Below are positions 907-57,219 of a stretch of DNA of 64,000 nt, in pieces. Positions within the stretch are counted from its first letter, which is position 1. Each line of letters starts with the position of its first letter. A program made the position numbers and the translations under genes. The stretch comes from Sipunculus nudus (lineage: Eukaryota; Annelida; Sipuncula; Golfingiida; Sipunculidae). The stretch lies in NCBI GenBank assembly GCA_026874595.1, contig CM049321.1:4209479-4273478 (forward strand), in the 5' to 3' direction. The notes below the pieces were generated by a model, which saw nothing but the letters and a program-made list of their open reading frames with translations, did not search any database and was not told the DNA's origin.

Positions 907-1702
907 CTACATTAATCTTGATCTTTTAATTTTCTCTTTTCTTCCACTCCAAATGAAAGAAAATATTAACTTATTAAGTTTTTCACAAAAGTCAGGTGGA
1001 GCAGTCTCATTTGAAATAAAATACTGGAACTTTGAAATAATAAAAGTTTTAACAATCTGAATTTTTCCTTTCAAATTTCCTTTCCAAATATTGAGTGTAT
1101 GCTGTGCCTCCTTTAATTTAGAGTAACAGTTAAATTCATCTGCTGCCTTTTTATTATATGAAATATAAATTCCTAAAAATTTGACAGGGTTATTAGGCCA
1201 CAGAATTCCCAAGGGTTTTCTTTTGTTCTCTCTGTTACTTCCTACCCCAATCCCTTCACACTTATCTTTATTCATTTGTAGCCCACTATAAGTTCCAAAT
1301 TCTTGCACCATCTTCAAAAATTGTTTTGCTAAATTCACATCCTTAGTTATCCCAACTGTGTCATCTGCGTATTGTAGGAGTTTTATATTTTCCTTAGAAA
1401 TTTTAATTCCTTCTATCTTTTCATTAAGTCTAATTTTTTCTGCCATTATTTCCACAGCTAATATAAATAAATATGGTGAAAGTGAATCTCCCTGTCGCAC
1501 TACTCTTAGAACTTTAAAATAACCTGAAGTGTTGCCATTGTTTATTGTGCAGCTTTCAATATTTCTATATAAGATTTTTACCCATTTAATAAAAGAAGAA
1601 GGAAGATTAAATTTGTCAAGGACAGAAAACATAAAATACCACTCTAATGAATCAAAAGCTTTCTCAAAATCAATTCCTAATATTATACCTGGAACTTTGT
1701 TT
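907..1702 (-). pseudogene. LINE reverse transcriptase catalytic core (palm/thumb), fragment
   Basis: From the Met at 1632 the frame gives 241 residues. It contains RQGDSLSPYLF (46-56), the catalytic YADD (88-91), SGLQMNKDKC (116-125) and KFLGIYI (151-157). These are RT motifs B to E. The same frame extends upstream of that Met to about 1702 and contains motif A as GIDFEKAFDSLEW, which supplies the first catalytic Asp. The start at 1632 is therefore only an internal Met. The catalytic Asp residues survive, but the frame is cut off from the endonuclease and from the C-terminus (tandem duplication at 765-856). Confidence 0.85.
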
Positions 1703-1966
1703 TGTTTGGTATATATATCTATATATCTTCCCTGGATGTAACCCTGGTCTTCCCTGGTTACCTTTTATAATATTTGGCATAACTTTCTTCAATCTAAGTG
1801 AGAGGGTTTTTGATAATATTTTATAATCTACATTAAGCAATGACAGTGATCTCCAATTTTTTAATAGTGTTCTATCTTTCTTTTTATCAATTAAAGTTAT
1901 GATAGCCTGTTTTTGTGAACTAGTTAATTCCCCTTCTCTAAAAGACTTGTTAAATGAAGCTACCAT
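1670..1966 (-). pseudogene. LINE reverse transcriptase, fingers region (motifs 1-2), fragment
   Basis: This 98-residue frame contains LIDKKKD and NWRSLSLLNVDYKILSK, the conserved 'P-K-K-x-D…N-W-R-P-I-S-L-L-N' block ahead of the RT catalytic core. The invariant-like Pro is replaced by Ser in this copy. The frame overlaps the preceding fragment at one end and is shifted relative to the catalytic fragment at about 1700, where motif A begins in another frame. Confidence 0.75.
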
Positions 1967-2620
1967 TAATGCACCAAATTGTGGCCAAATTTTTTTGATA
2001 AAATTCAGCAGTTATTCCACCATTACCTGGAAGTATTTCTAATTCTTGTATGGTTGGTGTATTCAGTTTAATCTCTTTCAAATACTGTGTTATGTTTTCA
2101 TCTGATATATCAAAATGTGAACTGTATAATCTTTTATAATATTCCTTTTGCATGCTTAATAAACTTTAAGAATTTGTGACCATTCCTCCATCAGTTGACT
2201 GAAGTTCCCTAATGCATTTCTGTTGATTATTATATTTTTTCTAAATTTAAGAAATATTTCGAGCTCTTTTCACCTTTTTCAAACCATCGTATTTTTGAAC
2301 GCAAGATACATCCCTCTATTTTTGAATTATCAATTTCTTCCAACTGTAATTTAACTTGATCTATTTCTTGGTTCACCTTTTCTCTTATTTCAGCATCTGA
2401 GTTATCTTATATCTCATATAATTCTTTCAGTTTGGAGTTCAAGTATATATCTTTTAACTTTCTATCTCTTGCCCTTTTTTTACTATAAGATATAGAATAC
2501 TGCCTTATTTTATACTTCATTAATTCCCATTTTACTCTTTCATCTGACAATTCTTTAACTTCTTTATCCCACTCAATTTTTGACTAAATTAATCCTGAAA
2601 CATAGTCCGACTCGTCTAAA
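1950..2620 (-). pseudogene. LINE ORF2 linker and N-terminal RT segment, multiple frame breaks
   Basis: Between the endonuclease and the RT core, minus-strand frames show the linker typical of L1/Tx1 elements: a 'GEKSSKYFLNLEK'-like phrase near 2230-2290, then EYYKRLYSS and PGNGGITAEFYQ at 1950-2153. In active elements the last phrase is 'K-x-P-G-x-D-G', just before RT motif 1. In-frame stops near 2160 and changes of frame break the region. Confidence 0.65.
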
Positions 2621-2653
2621 AACTCTGAGTTAAGTTTCCAATACCTTTTTCCT

Positions 2654-2860
2654 TTAGATCCTGAAACATCTAACTTTTCTATATCTAAAATTATCGCACA
2701 GTGGTCTGATTTTATATATGGAAGAACACATATTCTTTACATTATCTTGTATAATATTAGAAACCCACCAATAGTCCAACCTGCTACAAATCTGGCCATT
2801 ATTCAATCTCCAAGTATAACATTTTTTTCTTGGGTGTTTTATTCTATATATATATATCAA
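2654..2860 (-). pseudogene. LINE endonuclease C-terminal segment, frameshifted
   Basis: This frame reads IYRIKHPRKKCYTWRL, then a segment with SRLDYWWVS. It matches the pattern '(D/W)xxRxxxPxxxxxTW…SRxDYxxVS' near the end of LINE APE endonucleases. The terminal SDH motif is degraded (PLCDN). It continues the domain at 2897-3379 after a frame break, so the element is a pseudogene at this point. Confidence 0.7.
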
Positions 2861-2896
2861 CCAAATTAAGATAATCTACAGTTTTAAAAAGAACTT

Positions 2897-3379
2897 CTAG
2901 CACTTGTTTTCGAATTGCCATAACTCCCCTTTTTTATCTAAATTTGCGTCTAAAATTATGTTAAAATCTCCTCCTAACAGAATTTCTTCGCTGCTATCAG
3001 TAAATTTTTTAACCAAATTAAATAGTCTTTCATAAAATATTTTTTGTTCTGAAAATATGTTTGGCGCATATATAATTATTAATTTATACTCAACTTGTTT
3101 AATTTTAGCTTTTAATATTAATATTCTTCGATCTATTGATGTATGGAGTACCTCTATATCTTCTATTTCTAAATTTCTTTTAAAAAGTATTGCACATCCT
3201 TTACTGGATGAATTCTCATGACTAAAATATGCTTTGCCATTCCATTCATGTTGCCACAGGCTCTCTGTTTGTTTGGTGCTATGCGTTTCTTGTAAAAATA
3301 GTACATCAGAGTTATTCACTTTAGCCCATCTCAATACTGATCTTCTTTTCTGTTGGTAACCAAGTCCTCTAAATTTCAA
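2897..3379 (-). pseudogene. LINE ORF2 endonuclease domain (APE type), fragment
   Basis: A 160-residue open frame holds the N-terminal endonuclease of the LINE. Visible motifs are LQETH (residues 29-33, with the metal-binding Glu), SKGCAILF (59-66), IIIYAPN (101-107) and GGDFN (136-140, with the catalytic Asp/Asn pair). These are the landmark motifs of the exonuclease-endonuclease-phosphatase fold. The usual start 'W-N-(V/I)-R-G-L' appears as LKFRGL, so the true start probably lies a few codons upstream of the Met used here. The frame stops just after the GELW segment; the rest of the domain, including the SDH region, is in another frame at 2654-2860. Confidence 0.85.
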
Positions 3380-3380
3380 G

Positions 3381-3960
3381 CTAATTACTCTGAAAGTCAG
3401 TCTCTGTACTTCCTATTAATCTTATCTGAGAGTCACAATTTCTTAAATATGAAATAGTAGTAACTTTACTTCTACTTATGATGTGGAACATTAAAACAAA
3501 CATATTAAATTGTAAATATACCCCTGTCAACATAAAATCTAAGAAAAAAAATGTATTCTCCCTGTTTTCCAGTTCTGTCAAAGAAATAAACAACAGGAAG
3601 ATTACTTGGATCATGAAGATCCTATCTATATCCAAGATGTAGCTGATGAAAACTTGACAATGGGATCTCGGTGGTTGAATCTAGGAAGACTTGATTGCGT
3701 GAATATAATTGCCTCCGTCAGGCAGTTATCTATCTGATATAGATTAGGTGCAATCCCAGTGTTTCCGGAACACTTTCCCTCTGAGAACTGAAAACGCTTC
3801 CTCTCTTTCCGCACCAACGTGACCGACCTGACCGATGTATCTGGCTCGGGAAAATATCTACAAATCTCATCCCCTATTGAATTTCTTTCCGCCCCCCGTG
3901 GTATCGTCTTGAGATCGAAGTCTCTTTGATCTGCCGAGAAAGTGCCTTGTTAATGTAAAT
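3381..3960 (-). other. Possible LINE 5' untranslated region
   Basis: This lies directly upstream (minus strand) of the endonuclease. It has small unrecognised frames of 84 and 63 codons and is more GC-rich toward 3780-3960. Its position fits a 5' UTR or ORF1 remnant, but no ORF1 motif was recognised. Confidence 0.3.
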
Positions 3961-18460: not shown

Positions 18461-18965
18461 TTGTCTCATATAAACGCCTTTTATGTCCATTTTCGATAAA
18501 TTAAATAACAAGGCTCCATTTGCTGAATATCTAATGAATGAAATGCTTTGAAATTCGATAAGCATGTTGATCTTAGAAAACATAATCCATTTTTATGACA
18601 TCGATGGCATTTTCTTGTTATCTTTTTTTACCTTAATAGTAATTGTGGGACTGATAAACATGTCTCACTTTGAGCTCACTAAATACCTAAGAGCCTGACT
18701 AAAATTTTGAGTGATAGCCTACAATGTCACAGGTCAGGCCTGTCAGCTGAGCGTCATGACCCATGAGTTACTTGTTTAACAGAGTTTAAAAAATCGGCTG
18801 GTAGAGTATCATACATATAATTGTTATTCATTAATATACATAAATATATACAGTGGTAGGGATAACGAGCGAGAGTTTACACTAGGAGTACACGAGAATA
18901 AAGCCGGATGGCTAACGCAAAGTGCATCACAATGGCTCAGTGAAATATATCAGATTAGCATATTA

Positions 18966-20545
18966 GGGTATTTCTACAAAAAATGTCGCATTTCATGTCC
19001 CGAAACTATATTTGTTACTGAGAAATTAGCAAATGCTAAAAATGGCATGAATAAACATTCAGATTGTTGCTAAAGATATAACCATTATTATGAGATAAAA
19101 ATAATTTAAATCGGGGCAGAAATACATACAGAAAAAAAGCTGCAAATGTTACTATACCCTTAAATTTCCGTTGTCCCTTTCTCTCGGATCTTAAATTCAA
19201 AACAGCGTTTTTCTGTAACCACTGTTCCATTTATATAGATTTTGTTTCCACTTTGTCACAGCGGTGAAAGTTTATTAAGATGATATTTTTGCTTGATTTT
19301 TCCTGACCGTTTTGTTTTTAATACAAAAATTTGGATATAAAAAGTATGTCTCCCAAAATATACTCGGCACCGTTACCTGACCTTTTGACCTTGCAGCGCG
19401 TTAACAGAAACCACTTTGCTGATGCAGGGAGCAGCGTTTAATAGAGTTCAGGAAATTTTGTACACATAATCCACAATTAAATTTAGTAACTGTCATATCA
19501 GTGTTCTCTGTTAATCATTAAAGGGTTAAAACAATCACCGTATGTTTATTTGGACTCGACACCGTTACACCTGCGAAAAATTAACCGTCACATATAACAC
19601 TTCGAAAATGGCTTCCTCTTGTTGTTCATATAGTGATAACTCGTGCTGCCCTCTTAGGGACGGTATGGAAGTAATTTTTGTCCTGCATTTGACGTATAGA
19701 TGAAAAAAACTCAGCACCGTTACCACTCGAAACCGTTACCTGCATGAAAAATAACGGTGTCGAGAGCAAAGTAACGGTGTCGAGAACTTGGTATTAAATC
19801 CAAATTATTGAAATAGAATTTGAAACATATTTTGGGCTAAATATTTTAAACATTTGCGTTTCTTCTATTCAAACAGGCATTTGCTTGTTTTAATACATAA
19901 TACTGGTATTCAAGTAGTCACTACGGTTATTTTTACTTCAGAAGCTCGACTCCGTTACCTATGCTCAACACCGTTATCTATGCTCAACACCGTTATCTAT
20001 GCTCAACACCATGTTTAAATTTTATTTTCTGTGCATTCAAAAAAATTAACAAGGTATTTCGACTCAAATTCTGAAGGTAGATGTACCAAAGTACTTTGTC
20101 CGGTAAATCCCTGCAAATGCACCCCTCTGCAAGCAAAAATAGGAATAGAGACAATTTTTGTTTTCAAAAGTTAATTAAAAAGAAGAAAATATGTTCTTTT
20201 TTACACACTTTTTTTTGTTAAATTCATAACTGAAATTTATGTTTTGATTTTATCAAAGGCTATTAATTTTAATTTTATCGAAAATCACAAAAAATCTAGT
20301 CAAAACAATTTCTGAAATGTGCAAGTGAGATTTTACTGCGTGTAACGGTGTCGAGAAAAAGGTTCATATTTTCCCTTTACCTGGACTATTTATAAAAAAA
20401 GGAAACTGAAAAGTGCACTACCTGCATTATTTTACAATTCTAACGATATTTTTCTACAAATTAAGTTTTGTTATATCAAAATCAAGATTTAAAAAAAAAT
20501 CACCAAGAAAACCCTTGAAATGCGACGTTTTCTGTAGAAATACCC
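18966..20545. mobile_element. 1,580-bp non-autonomous TIR element with internal motif array
   Basis: The 30-bp ends (18,966-18,995 and 20,516-20,545) are inverted copies with two mismatches, starting GGGTATTTCTACA and containing GTCGCATTTCA. Both sides are flanked by ATTA (18,962-18,965 and 20,546-20,549), a likely 4-bp target duplication. No transposase frame exists inside; the longest frame is 64 codons. The interior carries about ten copies of CTCGACACCGTTAC-like motifs in both orientations. The superfamily is not assigned. Confidence 0.85.
19363..20355. repeat. Dispersed 14-mer motif array CTCGACACCGTTAC
   Basis: Plus-strand copies start at about 19,363, 19,555, 19,710, 19,726, 19,945, 19,964 and 19,983. 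Inverse copies (GTAACGGTGTCGAG) lie at about 19,751, 19,771 and 20,342. The copies at 19,945-20,000 form a 19-bp tandem (ATGCTCAACACCGTTATCT). A 14-mer at this density is far above chance. A role as protein-binding sites is an inference. Confidence 0.88.
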
Positions 20546-20549
20546 ATTA

Positions 20550-35706: not shown

Positions 35707-36380
35707 ATTTGTAGATATGCTCCCCCTCTCTCTTTCTATCTTGGCGGAGATATGCTCCCTCTTTCCCTTTCTTTATTGGTGGTGATATGCTCAGTCTCTC
35801 CTGTCTCTCTTGGCGGAGATATGCTTGCGCTCTATCTTTCTCATTGGTGAAGATTGCTCTCGCTCCCTCAATTGGCGGAGGAACGCTTCTTTTCCCCTCC
35901 CCCCTTCTCTCTTGGCGTAGATATACCCCCTCTCTCCCTTTATCTTTGGCGTAGTTATGCTCCCTCTTTCCCTTCTCTCTTGGCAAAGGTATGCTACCTT
36001 GCCTTTTTTCTCTCTTGGCGGTGGTGTCCCTCTCTCCATTTCTATCATGGCGGAGATATGCTACCGCTCTATCTTTCTCTCTTGGAAGAGATATGCTCCC
36101 TGTCTTTCTTTCTCTTTTGGCGGAGTATGCTCTCGCTCCGTCACTTGGCGGAGGAACCCTTTTCTCTCCCTCTCCCTTTCTCTCTTGGCGTAGGTATTCT
36201 CCCTCTCTCCCATTCTCTCTTGGCGAAGATATGCTCACTATTTTACCTTTTCTCTTAGCGGAGGTATGCTCCCAGCCTTTTTTTCTCTCTTGGCAGAGGT
36301 GTCCTCCCTCTCTTCCTTTCTCTCCTAGCGAAGATATGTTTCCTTATTTCCTTTCTCTCTTGGTAGAAATATGCTCTCTC
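35707..36380 (+). repeat. Pyrimidine-rich minisatellite, 34-35-bp unit with 273-bp higher-order period
   Basis: Nineteen or more units begin TTGGCGGAGATATGCTC and continue in C/T-rich sequence. The unit starts fall at about 35,741, 35,776, 35,810, 35,844, 35,872, 35,912, 35,946, 35,980, 36,015, 36,047, 36,082, 36,117, 36,145, 36,185 and onward. The unusual 28- then 40-bp spacings recur 273 bp apart (35,844-35,912 and 36,117-36,185), showing duplication of an eight-unit block. Open frames of 134-223 codons on both strands come from the base bias and are not genes. Confidence 0.85.
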
Positions 36381-36530
36381 TATGGGCGTACGTATACTCT
36401 CTTACTATCTGTCTCTATCTATTTTTCTGTCTCCTCCCTTCCCCTCTCTCTCTCATCTTCCTCCCTCCCTCTCTCTCTCTCCCTCCCTCCCTCCCCTCCT
36501 CTCTCTTTCTCTCTCTCTCTCTCTCTGATA
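36381..36530. repeat. CT-rich low-complexity tract
   Basis: Mixed CTCT, CCTCCC and TCTC runs continue the minisatellite's base bias without its unit. Confidence 0.88.
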
Positions 36531-45430: not shown

Positions 45431-45670
45431 TGAACTGTGACACTGTATGTAGTACAACACAGTAAAAAACATTGATCACGAGAACCTGCCAAGGATATCC
45501 AGGGAGTCGTATTACTACACACTGATCCGATAAATCTATATACTACTAAATCTTTCCTGTATTTTTTTTTTTGTTTTCTTTGTATGACAGTGGTCCAGTT
45601 TTGCTCTCAGCGTCAGTAGATGCACTAATGGATTGAGTGGCAAGTGGAAATAGAGTTAGGTGTGTTACAT

Positions 45671-46260
45671 ATTAGCATGGATGTCTGCCATGTAAATATG
45701 ATTGTAGATGGCACCACCTGTTATTTGAACGAAAAATTGTGTAGGATATATACACATGCAAAATTTCAGGTGGAAAAGTCAGACTACTGCCGAGATATGA
45801 GTGATTTTTTCCCACAGCAGACAAACAGATGGACGCTGTGCAGAAATAGTTACAGTTGTCGCTACCAGTTTTGTGTATGATAAAGAGCTATGAGAGATCC
45901 AAACACATGCAAAACTTCAGGAAGATACGTCAAACGAGTCCGGAGGTATTAGCATGATATCTGCAGCATGAACGTGAATGTAGGTGGCGCCACTTGTCAT
46001 AAAAAAATGCTACCAAGGATGTATACGCAATCCAAATTTCGGGTGAATAAGTTAAACCACTGCCGAGATATGAGTGATTTTAACCCAAATCTAGAAAACA
46101 GATGGACACTGTGCAAAAATGGTTGTGTATGTTATAAAGCTATCCAACGGCTACATTTGTGCAAAATAATTTTCCCGATCGGTCAAACGGTTATGTGGGG
46201 TTATGTGTGGAAACAGACGCACAAATGGACGCTGGGCAAAGAGGAAAGGTCAGAGGTCAA
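45671..46260 (+). repeat. Diverged tandem repeat, about 277-bp period, two and a half units
   Basis: Shared words at 45,671 and 45,948 onward include ATTAGCATG, TGTAGATGGC/TGTAGGTGGC, CTGCCGAGATATGAGTGATT and ACAGATGGACGCTGTGC/ACAGATGGACACTGTGC. A third part begins near 46,140 with GTCAAACGGTTATG and ATGGACGCTGGGC. Frames through units 1 and 2 both encode a CRDMSDF and NRWTLC series. The 'CCGAGATATGAG' wording is common in molluscan interspersed repeats, so a gene is not called. Confidence 0.7.
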
Positions 46261-46319
46261 CCAAAAACGAGGGCGTAGCAGTTCACATGTGTCCCGATCA
46301 TAATTCCGAATTGAAAAAA

Positions 46320-47390
46320 AAATCTGCTCATTGGTTACGGAGGAGTTTTCCGGAAACCTATGCGGCGGCGGGGTGCAACTAAAAAAAATTATCCGCAAAT
46401 CTCTGTTTTTGGCGGATACAGTTATTGAAAAATTTTATGTTAGTTGTTGGCAAGTGAAATGAATACAAACATCCCACTCTGAAGAATTAAAAATGATGAC
46501 TATGACGATCAAAATAACACTAGAAACTATAGAAAGATGATGAAAAATGAAGGTTCTAATTACCAGTTAAATATATAAAGCGTGCCTTATTATACGACAG
46601 AGGACTCTGAACGTTAAATCATAGGAATTTGAAAAAAGGCCCCTTGCAGATCGTCCATTGCCTTAGCTGCTTTCAGCAACATAACGTTTCATGTCCTTTT
46701 AAAGGTCGACTGTTTCGTGGTTTGTCCATATGTTAAAAAATGTATCACGCGATATGACCATTTACACCTTAAATAGAGCTTTGTTATAATTGCTCCGCAA
46801 TGTGTGATATTTAAACATTTGCGCCATGGTAAAAGTATCATATTCAGAACTCAGCTGTAACATATTGCTAAAAGGAAGTGCGTTTTTACCTCAGTGACTG
46901 TTTACTCGGTCCTGGAGGACAGGTATACCATACTGCTCAAGGCTTCAATTACAGTAACAGCAAGAACGTATTTATCTTTACTTGTGTACGAAACTTGTAC
47001 ATATTATTGTAGAGTTTGCACTTGCTCAAACGGAGAAATTTGCAAATTAGCTTACTGTAAATGAACTTAATTATAAAATGAATACCACAGATTATAATGT
47101 GGTTTCACCTTTTTACCGAAACAGATCGTACATGGAGCCTATAACCCTAGCCAGGCGCATATGTAGGAAAATGATTGAAATACCCTGTAAGATATAACTA
47201 ACATTTACTCACAAATCAGTGTCCAATATAAAACGGGTTAATGCATTTGTTATGGTTAACTTAAGAAACAAGCGTTTGAAAGTATTTTGAATTAAGCCTT
47301 ACAGCACCGTAATAGAACTCTTACTGATAATAACCTTTAGTGTGTACTTTGGATAACACATGTTATCCGTGGCAACACATCCGGCAAACA
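46320..47390. other. Intergenic DNA, nothing recognised
   Basis: No frames, repeats or RNA seen. Confidence 0.4.
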
Positions 47391-53310: not shown

Positions 53311-54063
53311 GGTGATCAGGACGACCTCCTACATTTAATTGATCCTTCCCATGGTGTTACCCTGACCCTCAGCAAATCAACCTACTAAAGAAAACCAGAG
53401 GACTTATTTGAGGTTCACATTTTAAAGTTTCTCTTAGGTTCTCATTTTGAGGTTTAACTGAGGTTAGCATTTTAAGGTATTATCAAAGGTTCTCATTTTG
53501 AGGTTTATCAGAACTTAACATTTTAAGGTATTATCAAAGGTTCCCATTTTGAGGTTTATCAGAGGTTAACATTTTAAGGTATTATCAAAGGTTCTCATTT
53601 TGAGGTTTATCAGAGGTTAACATTTTAAGGTATTATCAAAGGTTCTCATTTTGAGGTTTATCATAGGTTAACATTTTAAGGTATTATCAAAGGTTCTCAT
53701 TTTGAGGTTTATCATAGGTTAACATTTTAAGGTATTATCAAAGGTTCTCATTTTGAGATTTATCAGAGGTTAACATTTTAAGGTATTATCAAAGGTTCTC
53801 ATTTTGAGGTTTATCAGAGGTTAACATTTTAAGGTATTATCAAAGGTTCTCATTTTGAGGTTTATCAGAGGTTAACATTTTAAGGTATTATCAAAGGTTC
53901 ACATTTTGAGGTTTATCAGAGATGAACATTTTAAGGTATTATCAAAGGTTCCCATTTTGAGGTTTATCAGAGGTTAACATTTTAAGGTATTATCAAAGGT
54001 TCTCATTTTGAGGTTTATCATAGGTTAACATTTTAAGGTATTATCAAAGGTTCTCATTTTGAG

Positions 54064-55826
54064 GTTTCCCAGTGGTGAACATTTTAAGGTATTATCAAAG
54101 GTTCTCATTTTGAGGTTTATCAGAGGTTAACATTTTAAGGTATTATCAAAGGTTCTCATTTTGAGGTTTATCAGAGATGAACATTTTAAGGCTATTATCA
54201 AAGGTTCTCATTTTGAGGTTTATCAGAGGTGAACATTATAAGGTATTATCAAAGGTTCTCATTTTGAGGTTTATCAGAGGTTAACATTTTAAGGTATTAT
54301 CAAAGGTTCTCATTTTGAGGTTTATCAGAGGTTAACATTTTAAGGTATTATCAAAGGTTCTCATTTTGAGGTTAATCATAGGTTAACATTTTAAGGTATT
54401 ATCAAAGCTTCTCATTTTGAGGTTAATCAGAGGTTAACATTTTAAGGTATTATCAAAGGTTCCCATTTTGAGGTTTATCAGAGGTTAACATTTTAAGGTA
54501 TTATTAAAGGTTCCATTTTGAGGTTTATCAGAGGTTAACATTTTAAGGTATTATCAAAGGTTCTCATTTTGAGGTTTATCAGAGGTGAACATTTTAAGGT
54601 ATTATCAAAGGTTCTCATTTTGAGGTTTATCAGAGGTTAACATTTTAAGGTATTATCAAAGGTTCTCATTTTGAGGTTTATCAGAGGTGAACATTTTAAG
54701 GTATTATCAAATGTTCTCATTTTGAGGTTTATCAGAGGTGAACATTTTAAGGTATTATCAAAGGTTCTCATTTTGAGGTTTATCAGAGGTTAACATTTTA
54801 AGGTATTATTAAAGGTTCCATTTTGAGGTTTATCAGAGGTTAACATTTTAAGGTATTATCAAAGGTTCTCATTTTGAGGTTTATCAGAGGTGAACATTTT
54901 AAGGTATTATCAAAGGTTCTCATTTTGAGGTTTATCAGAGGTTAACATTTTAAGGTATTATCAAAGGTTCTCATTTTGAGGTTTATCAGAGGTGAACATT
55001 TTAAGGTATTATCAAATGTTCTCATTTTGAGGTTTATCAGAGGTGAACATTTTAAGGTATTATCAAAGGTTCTCATTTTGAGGTTTATCAGAGGTTAACA
55101 TTTTAAGGTATTATCAAAGGTTCTCATTTTGAGGTTTATCAGAGGTGAACATTTTAAGGTATTATCAAAGGTTCTCATTTTGAGGTTAATCATAGGTTAA
55201 CATTTTAAGGTATTATCAAAGGTTCTCATTTTGAGGTTAATCAGAGGTTAACATTTTAAGGTATTATCAAAGGTTCCCATTTTGAGGTTTATCAGAGGTT
55301 AACATTTTAAGGTATTATCAAAGGTTCCCATTTTGAGGGTTTATCAGAGGTTAACATTTTAAGGTATTATCAAAGGTTCTCATTTTGAGGTTTCCCAGTG
55401 GTGAACATTTTAAGGTATTATCAAAGGTTCTCATTTTGAGGTTTATCAGAGGTTAACATTTTAAGGTATTATCAAAGGTTCTCATTTTGAGGTTTCTCAG
55501 AGGTTAACATTTTAAGGTATTATCAAAGGTTCTCATTTTGAGGTTTATCAGAGGTGAACATTTTAAGGTATTATCAAAGGTTCTCATTTTGAGGTTTATC
55601 AGAGGTTAACATTTTAAGGTATTATCAAATGTTCTCATTTTGAGGTTTATCAGAGGTTAACATTTTAAGGTATTATCAAAGGTTCTCATTTTGAGGTTAA
55701 TCATAGGTTAACATTTTAAGGTATTATCAAAGCTTCTCATTTTGAGGTTAATCAGAGGTTAACATTTTAAGGTATTATCAAAGGTTCCCATTTTGAGGTT
55801 TATCAGAGGTTAACATTTTAAGGTAT
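54064..55826 (+). repeat. 26-unit (about 1,326-bp) segmental duplication inside the satellite
   Basis: The rare variant GTTTCCCAGTGGTGAAC occurs at 54,064 and 55,390. The variant pair GTTAATCATAGG then CAAAGCTTCTC occurs at 54,371 and 55,696. The distances are 1,326 and 1,325 bp, or 26 units. Confidence 0.85.
54501..55110 (+). repeat. Six-unit (305-bp) higher-order duplication inside the satellite
   Basis: Markers TTATTAAAGGTTCCATTTTG (54,501 and 54,806) and CAAATGTTCTC (about 54,708 and 55,013) are each 305 bp apart. The intervening order of TTAAC and TGAAC unit variants is the same. Confidence 0.88.
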
Positions 55827-57219
55827 TATCAAAGGTTCCATTTTGAGGTTTATCAGAGGTTAACATTTTAAGGTATTATCAAAGGTTCTCATTTTGAGGT
55901 TTATCAGAGGTGAACATTTTAAGGTATTATCAAAGGTTCTCATTTTGAGGTTTATCAGAGGTTAACATTTTAAGGTATTATCAAAGGTTCTCATTTTGAG
56001 GTTGATCAGAGGTTAACATTTTAAGGTATTATCAAAGGTTCTCATTTTGAGGTTTATCAGAGGTGAACATTGTAAGGTATTATCAAAGGTTCTCATTTTG
56101 AGGTTTATCAGAGGTGAACATTTTAAGGTATTATCAAAGGTTCTCATTTTGAGGTTCATCAGAGGTTAACATTTTAAGGTATTATCAAAGGTTCTCATTT
56201 TGAGGTTTATCAGAGGTGAACATTTTAAGGTATTATCAAAGGTTCTCATTTTGAGGTTTATCAGAGGTTAACATTTTAAGGTATTATCAAAGGTTCTCAT
56301 TTTGAGGTTTATGAGGGGTTAACATTTTAAGGTATTATCAAAGGTTCTCATTTTGAGGTTTATCAGAGGTGAACATTTTAAGGTATTATCAAAGGTTCTC
56401 ATTTTGAGGTTCATCAGAGGTTAACATTTTAAGGTATTATCAAAGGTTCTCATTTTGAGGTTTATCAGAGGTTAACATTTTAAGGTATTATCAAAGGTTC
56501 TCATTTTGAGGTTTATCAGAGGTTAACATTTTAAGGTATTATCAAAGGTTCTCATTTTGAGGTTTATCAGAGGTTAACATTTTAAGGTATTATCAAAGGT
56601 TCTCATTTTGAGGTTTATCAGAGGTTAACATTTTAAGGTATTATCAAAGGTTCTCATTTTGAGGTTTATCAGAGTTTAACATTTTAAGGTATTATCAAAG
56701 GTTCTCATTTAGAGGTTTATGAGGGGTTAACATTTTTAGGTATTTTCAAAGGTTCTCATTTTGAGGTTTATCAGAGGTGAACATTTCAAGGTATTATCAA
56801 AGGTTCTCATTTTGAGGTTTATCAGAGATTAACATTTTAAGGTATTATCAAAGGTTCTCATTTTGAGGTTTATCAGAGGTTAACATTTTAAGGTATTATC
56901 AAAGGTTCTCATTTTGAGGTTTATCAGAGGTTAACATTTTAAGGTATTATCAAAGGTTCTCATTTTGAGGTGTATCAGAGGTTAACATTTTAAGGTATTA
57001 TCAAAGGTTCTCATTTTGAGGTTTATCAGAGGTTAACATTTTAAGGTATTATCAAAGGTTCTCATTTTGAGGTTTATCAGAGGTAAACATTTTAAGGTAT
57101 TATCAAAGGTTCTCATTTTGAGGTTTATCAGAGGTTAACATTTTAAGGTATTATCAAAGGTTCTCATTTTGAGGTTTATCTGAGGTTCTTTTGATCAGGT
57201 TCATTTGCTAAGGTTCTAA

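Follow-up and report, generated by a model that had tools for sequence, protein, structure and literature searches.

A retained interior array of 14-bp words in a non-autonomous DNA transposon of Sipunculus nudus, a candidate platform for a DNA-binding protein

The 1580-bp element at 18966..20545 (plus strand) is well supported as a non-autonomous TIR DNA transposon, and its interior carries an array of ten 14-bp words. Comparison with a diverged sister family shows that six of these words, as judged from aligned offsets and letters, retain their place and spelling while the DNA between them has changed. A protein on which the element depends probably docks at these words; their status as candidate binding sites is supported indirectly, by their near-privacy to the family and by the six words retained in the sister. 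Non-autonomous transposons are usually thought to require little beyond their ends. If an interior array has been held in place across anciently split families, interior cis-sites would be under selection too.

The element and its copies in the genome

The window, that is the whole stretch of 64,000 bp that was analysed, corresponds to C16:4209479-4273478 in an assembly totalling 1,426,538,692 bp. The element search of the genome delimits a complete copy in it, and re-reading returned the same figures that the original prediction had given for its size and borders. The left terminal inverted repeat (18966..18995, plus strand, beginning GGGTATTTCTACA...) and the right one (20516..20545, minus strand) were defined by end comparison and by end matches in the genome; they agree in 28 of 30 positions, and the element ends are GGG..CCC. 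Direct reading places the target site duplication ATTA at 18962..18965 and again at 20546..20549. The longest ORF wholly within the element has 64 aa, so that it holds no transposase frame, as had been predicted.

Other features were noted elsewhere in the window. An array at 53410-57187 repeats a 51-bp unit about 74 times (96% match, strong GC skew), and a degenerate CT-rich minisatellite with a unit of ~35 bp, accompanied by long ORFs on both strands, lies at 35713-36381. The minus strand at 907-3412 contains fragmented ORFs resembling, by reading only, a LINE reverse transcriptase and endonuclease. A dispersed repeat at 45628-46433 has similar sequences in five of 20 random 10-kb genome stretches (L002, L003, L004, L012 and L017), several of which carry repeated pieces. 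The tRNA and Rfam searches of the window gave no match.

Querying the genome with the element yielded 41 matches (40 of 356 candidates were scored). Of these, 37, counting the window copy, extend over 1578 or more of the 1580 bases at 93-100% identity. The end pattern with up to 3 mismatches, both ends counted together, matched at 353 places in the genome and its reversed control at 0. Fifteen copies were fetched with their flanks, together with two long end pairs and nine odd ends. An exact 4-bp duplication was found at 16 of the 21 copies in which both junctions were compared, the window copy included. The ends are thus shared, together with 4-bp duplications, by other copies, and the outcome that would have spoken against the original prediction did not occur. 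The duplications are AT-rich and varied (ATTA, ATAT, TAAA, ATTT, AATT, GTTT, AGGT, TTTA and others); the predicted 4-bp duplication is thus present, but ATTA is not a motif, since its letters vary between copies. A substitution or a shift by one base accounts for the misses at L033, L034 and L038; at L042 and L044, which are old copies, no exact duplication is present. The predicted class of non-autonomous transposon is well supported by the hundreds of matches to the ends, the full-length copies spread over many contigs, the 4-bp duplications and the lack of a coding frame.

The closest other copy, on C7, differs from the window copy at 0.3% of positions. Fifteen aligned young copies each lie 0.5-2.7% from the majority letters and form a nearly star-shaped tree, and L042 lies 18% from the same majority letters. 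Used as a query, L042 found 42 further matches at 77-87% (40 of 329 candidates scored). The duplications, the 0.3% distance to the nearest copy and these older matches together show that this is one recently active family with both older and very recent copies. Blastn of the element against a 200-kb genome sample (20 random 10-kb stretches) gave no match. Its ends had no match in viral and prokaryotic contig collections, nor had a direct word pair in the viral collection; these collections contain few eukaryotes, and both results say little.

The family is uniform in size. Among the first 100 of the 353 end places, those that were listed, 32 perfect-end pairs were identified by eye, 29 of them spaced 1550-1597 bp, three longer and none shorter. 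The autonomous copy with the same 30-bp ends, which was to be sought according to the original prediction, did not appear among the TIR pairs fetched from these 100 places; the nine odd ends and the fetched long pairs all belong to the same gene-less family. This search covered the nine odd ends, two of the three longer pairs and a fourth long pair identified separately (L037, L038 and L047); a further pair, on C5, spans 22.7 kb. The candidate L037 (8.5 kb) was rejected because it is a family copy into which an LTR-type retroelement with a 1902-aa ORF has inserted. Other DNA interrupts the family copies L038 and L047, and L039-L046 are older, truncated or interrupted family copies; these too were rejected.

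Two of these loci deserve a description of their own. Close to its ends, the retroelement in L037 (C2:64048416-64057002) carries an exact direct repeat of 228 bp; it sits in the family copy with a 5-bp duplication and is BEL/Pao-like by reading only. The old copy L044 (C6:17192800-17196952) holds a 2113-bp insert with inverted ends, TACGGTGGCTCG...CGAGCCACCGTA, flanked by a 6-bp duplication, AATACC; its TA..TA ends and duplication length fit IS3EU as described in PMC10045372.

The ten words and their retention in a sister family

The original prediction of about ten motif copies in both orientations is borne out: when three mismatches are allowed, CTCGACACCGTTAC matches ten sites in the 64-kb window, all of them inside the element; 100 shuffles of the window gave 2.13 matches on average and six at most. 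On the plus strand lie word 1 (CTCGGCACCGTTAC, 19363..19376), word 2 (CTCGACACCGTTAC, 19555..19568), word 3 (CTCAGCACCGTTAC, 19710..19723), word 4 (CTCGAAACCGTTAC, 19726..19739), word 7 (CTCGACTCCGTTAC, 19945..19958) and words 8 and 9 (both CTCAACACCGTTAT, 19964..19977 and 19983..19996); on the minus strand lie word 5 (CTCGACACCGTTAT, 19751..19764), word 6 (CTCGACACCGTTAC, 19771..19784) and word 10 (CTCGACACCGTTAC, 20342..20355). Scored with a matrix built from them, and thus in a partly circular way, the ten words reach 23-27 bits, whereas no other site in the window exceeds 10.5.

All ten words consist of CTC, a loose middle and CCGTTA, the outer parts being invariant. Pairs of words outside the tandem run are 88% alike, and the adjoining 14-30 bp on each side only 25-30%, so the words are sharp units. 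The array is central, beginning 397 bp from the left end and stopping 190 bp from the right one, the outermost 189 bp at each end hold no word, and the word is by reading unlike the terminal repeat. Within the element the core TAACGG, the reverse complement of CCGTTA, is confined to the words; its density in the 200-kb genome sample is 0.20 per kb. Words 7, 8 and 9 form a tandem run with a 19-bp period at 19944-20010, which ends in a degenerate half-word, CTCAACACC (20002..20010, plus strand). This extra half unit is restricted to the window copy, L022 and L023, the youngest subfamily, where its gain replaced other sequence; it is absent from 12 other aligned young copies. The strings GGGTATTTCTAC, TAACGGTGTCGAG and CTCGACACCGTTA did not occur in a text search of the literature.

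The exact word is found 333 times in the genome and the reversed-word control 58 times; this control puts the chance level too high, since the word contains two CpGs and its reversal none. For 79 of the first 100 of the 333 exact words, a listed family copy or end lies no more than 1.7 kb away, as determined by position and not letter by letter. For the other 21, sixteen places were fetched in 15 stretches: blastn identifies 14 of them (13 stretches) as parts of family fragments, and two, L051 and L062, fall in the sister family; the five unfetched places stand at family spacing. No lone chance word was met among the 16 places in the 15 fetched stretches, and the 200-kb sample contains four words (up to three mismatches), no two of them within 1 kb. 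The word is almost exclusive to the family. The motif is thus not equally frequent inside and outside the copies, 79 of the first 100 exact words being near family copies or ends and 14 in family fragments.

L051 and L062 both carry word arrays, are 74% alike to each other and have no match to the main family at E 1e-5 in an ordinary blastn search. This sister family is represented by two copies, one of which was followed to one end: L062, extended by 700 bases on each side, gave the copy C5:46443880-46446080. Its end, GGGTCATTATTCGAAAATTGTCGCATTTATGTCCCC, is related to the left end of the main family (40 columns at 80%, E 2e-4); for its other end the local alignment score was 33.0 against a shuffle maximum of 37.5, with no matching duplication. 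Counted from the end, the sister words stand at +389, +581, +736, +753, -775 and -794, and words 1 to 6 of the window copy at +398, +590, +745, +761, -786 and -806, so that the orientations of all six are the same; 300 shuffles produced no colinear word.

When the best 14-bp match near the same offset was sought, the six words reached 11-13 of 14 letters and 744 non-word windows 7.97 on average; 17 non-word windows reached at least 11 of 14, of which 11 lie in the terminal repeat. Global alignment of the window and sister copies scored 58.6, shuffled sisters at most 19.0, and gave identities of 71/79 in the words, 32/39 in the end and 429/621 elsewhere. Much of this 69% elsewhere is gap-fitting, because shuffled sisters average 59% there (maximum 86%), against 24% in the words (maximum 79%). 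Between the families 12 of the 84 word positions differ, none at word positions 1-3 or 8-12. Since the sister locus was found through word 4, this word was also set aside, which leaves 11 differences in 70 positions, again with none at 1-3 or 8-12. The ++-- cluster of words 3 to 6 (19710-19784) is retained in both families, with spacers that differ in length and letters. A TAACGG-type core is present in 10/10 window words and 4/6 sister words, the exceptions being words 2 and 6 of the sister.

Within the main family the picture is different. Post-insertion drift amounts to 2.6% in words and 3.1% in the rest at non-CpG positions, and to 4.7% and 4.4% at CpG positions, so that no sparing of words was seen in dead main-family copies. 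L050 (55/76 in words, 77% elsewhere) and L057 (54/68 in words, 72% elsewhere) together display no sparing either, and one of the 21 subfamily-marking columns falls within words, about as by chance. Such drift of dead copies is expected where selection is confined to copies that still transpose and lends no support in itself; the pattern as a whole fits selection that would act on the words while master copies transpose.

Possible readers of the array

We favour, though with a little less than even confidence, a cut-and-paste element without its own enzyme, in which the words serve in cis as an array of sites for a DNA-binding protein needed for propagation, either a transposase domain or an accessory protein. 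The ends would be recognised by a transposase made elsewhere, which would duplicate a 4-bp AT-rich target. The ten words would attract the protein on which propagation depends, more plausibly an accessory protein, perhaps of the Myb/SANT type, from an autonomous partner that is lost or as yet unfound. Gathered on the words, this protein could help to assemble or regulate the transposition complex. A Myb-type reader is perhaps suggested by the invariant CCGTTA, and a precedent is provided by PIF/Harbinger elements, which encode a Myb-like protein; that of Harbinger3_DR is reported to recognise a 9-bp subterminal motif (PMC9710019).

Besides this precedent, the accessory-protein reading is favoured by the sharpness of the words, their near-privacy, the colinearity with the sister and the uniform size of 1550-1597 bp. 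It is weakened by the lack of an autonomous copy among those fetched and by the central position of the array, which in known cases is subterminal. The drift of words at the rate of the rest, including L050 and L057, and the 1/21 subfamily columns also weaken it, as do the two-copy sister family and the broken TAACGG in sister words 2 and 6.

Less probable, but still a serious tentative alternative, is that the words are sites for a host transcription factor of the MYB family, forming an enhancer-like array that would open chromatin or drive transcription in germ-line or dividing cells, and would thereby aid the spread of the element and scatter the sites. Eight of the ten words contain TAACGGTG, named as a high-affinity B-Myb site in PMC9478404. 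The invariance of CCGTTA in the ten words and the restriction of TAACGG to words within the element, against its frequency in the genome sample, are consistent with such a factor, the central position suits an enhancer, and plant MITEs spreading E2F sites have been described (PMC12595863). However, MYB does not need the CTC at positions 1-3, which is equally invariant, the core is lost from two sister words, and any 14-bp word resembles some factor's core. The CTC half and this loss favour a dedicated bipartite reader over plain MYB, and the central position favours plain MYB. At modest odds, we rank an element-serving accessory protein first and a host factor second.

A rather unlikely alternative is that the words are multiple secondary sites for the transposase itself, as in Galileo, with no Myb-type protein. 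The repeated long ends of Galileo hold several THAP-domain sites that give binding specificity (PMC3688188), and both the two orientations of the words and the ++-- cluster common to the two families would agree with this; the word-free terminal 189 bp on either side and the dissimilarity of word and terminal repeat do not. A role of the words at the RNA level (small-RNA targets, for instance) or in DNA structure (such as a hairpin formed by the ++-- cluster) is quite improbable: the inverted arrangement of the cluster is indeed retained in the sister, but the spacers have changed in length and letters and words 1, 2 and 7-10 lie far apart. Marginally less probable still is a neutral minisatellite spread inside one ancestor, which would account for the tandem 19-bp run and the half unit gained in the window's subfamily, but not for words that mostly have no common flank and stand in both orientations at irregular distances, or for six that hold place and spelling across families where other windows do not.

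A broader proposal, which we advance tentatively, is that the most conserved interior of this lineage is a regulatory array of at least six bipartite CTC-N4-CCGTTA words, kept at fixed offsets and orientations while other DNA was replaced. The lineage would then survive through a docking platform for MYB or a Myb-like protein rather than through its ends alone, and would have spread this platform to hundreds of places. If a host MYB reads the words, potential sites for it have been dispersed across the 1.43-Gb genome with the few hundred copies. The ten natural word variants of the window copy and the six of the sister make up a directly testable set of sites.

Relation to known transposon systems

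PiggyBac, Kolobok and Sola3 use TTAA targets; TTAA is found in 0/16 exact duplications, and these groups were rejected. IS481EU and Ginger were tested jointly for TG..CA or TNT..AYA ends and were likewise rejected, the element ending in GGG..CCC. The TNPA sites of CACTA (En/Spm) elements are multiple short words, some in each orientation, to which a protein of the element binds. The likeness to the present array lies in these multiple bidirectional words; the CACTA ends and 3-bp duplications are seen nowhere in the element.

Sola2 may be compared with the element for its target duplications, which are AT-rich and 4 bp long, and for the shortness of its inverted ends (PMC3627910). However, its AWWT pattern fits only seven of the 16 exact duplications. 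The PHIS groups make duplications of a fixed 2- or 3-bp motif or none, that of PIF/Harbinger being 3 bp (TWA), and as described in PMC4482050 they were all rejected for an element with varied 4-bp duplications. On its duplications and ends the element was assigned to no superfamily.

Harbinger3_DR, itself a member of PIF/Harbinger, is similar in having a short internal motif for a second DNA-binding protein (PMC9710019), to which the MYB-like core of our words may be compared; its motif is 9 bp and subterminal, whereas the words are 14 bp and central in an element in which no transposase is seen. Galileo, of the P superfamily, resembles our element in its multiple internal sites, read there by a DNA-binding domain that the transposon encodes; its sites are placed in long terminal repeats and not, as here, in the interior (PMC3688188). 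The MITEs with E2F sites belong to plants, concern another factor and are mostly hAT, PIF/Harbinger and MULE elements, but they too are gene-less TIR elements that spread the site of a factor, as PMC12595863 describes them.
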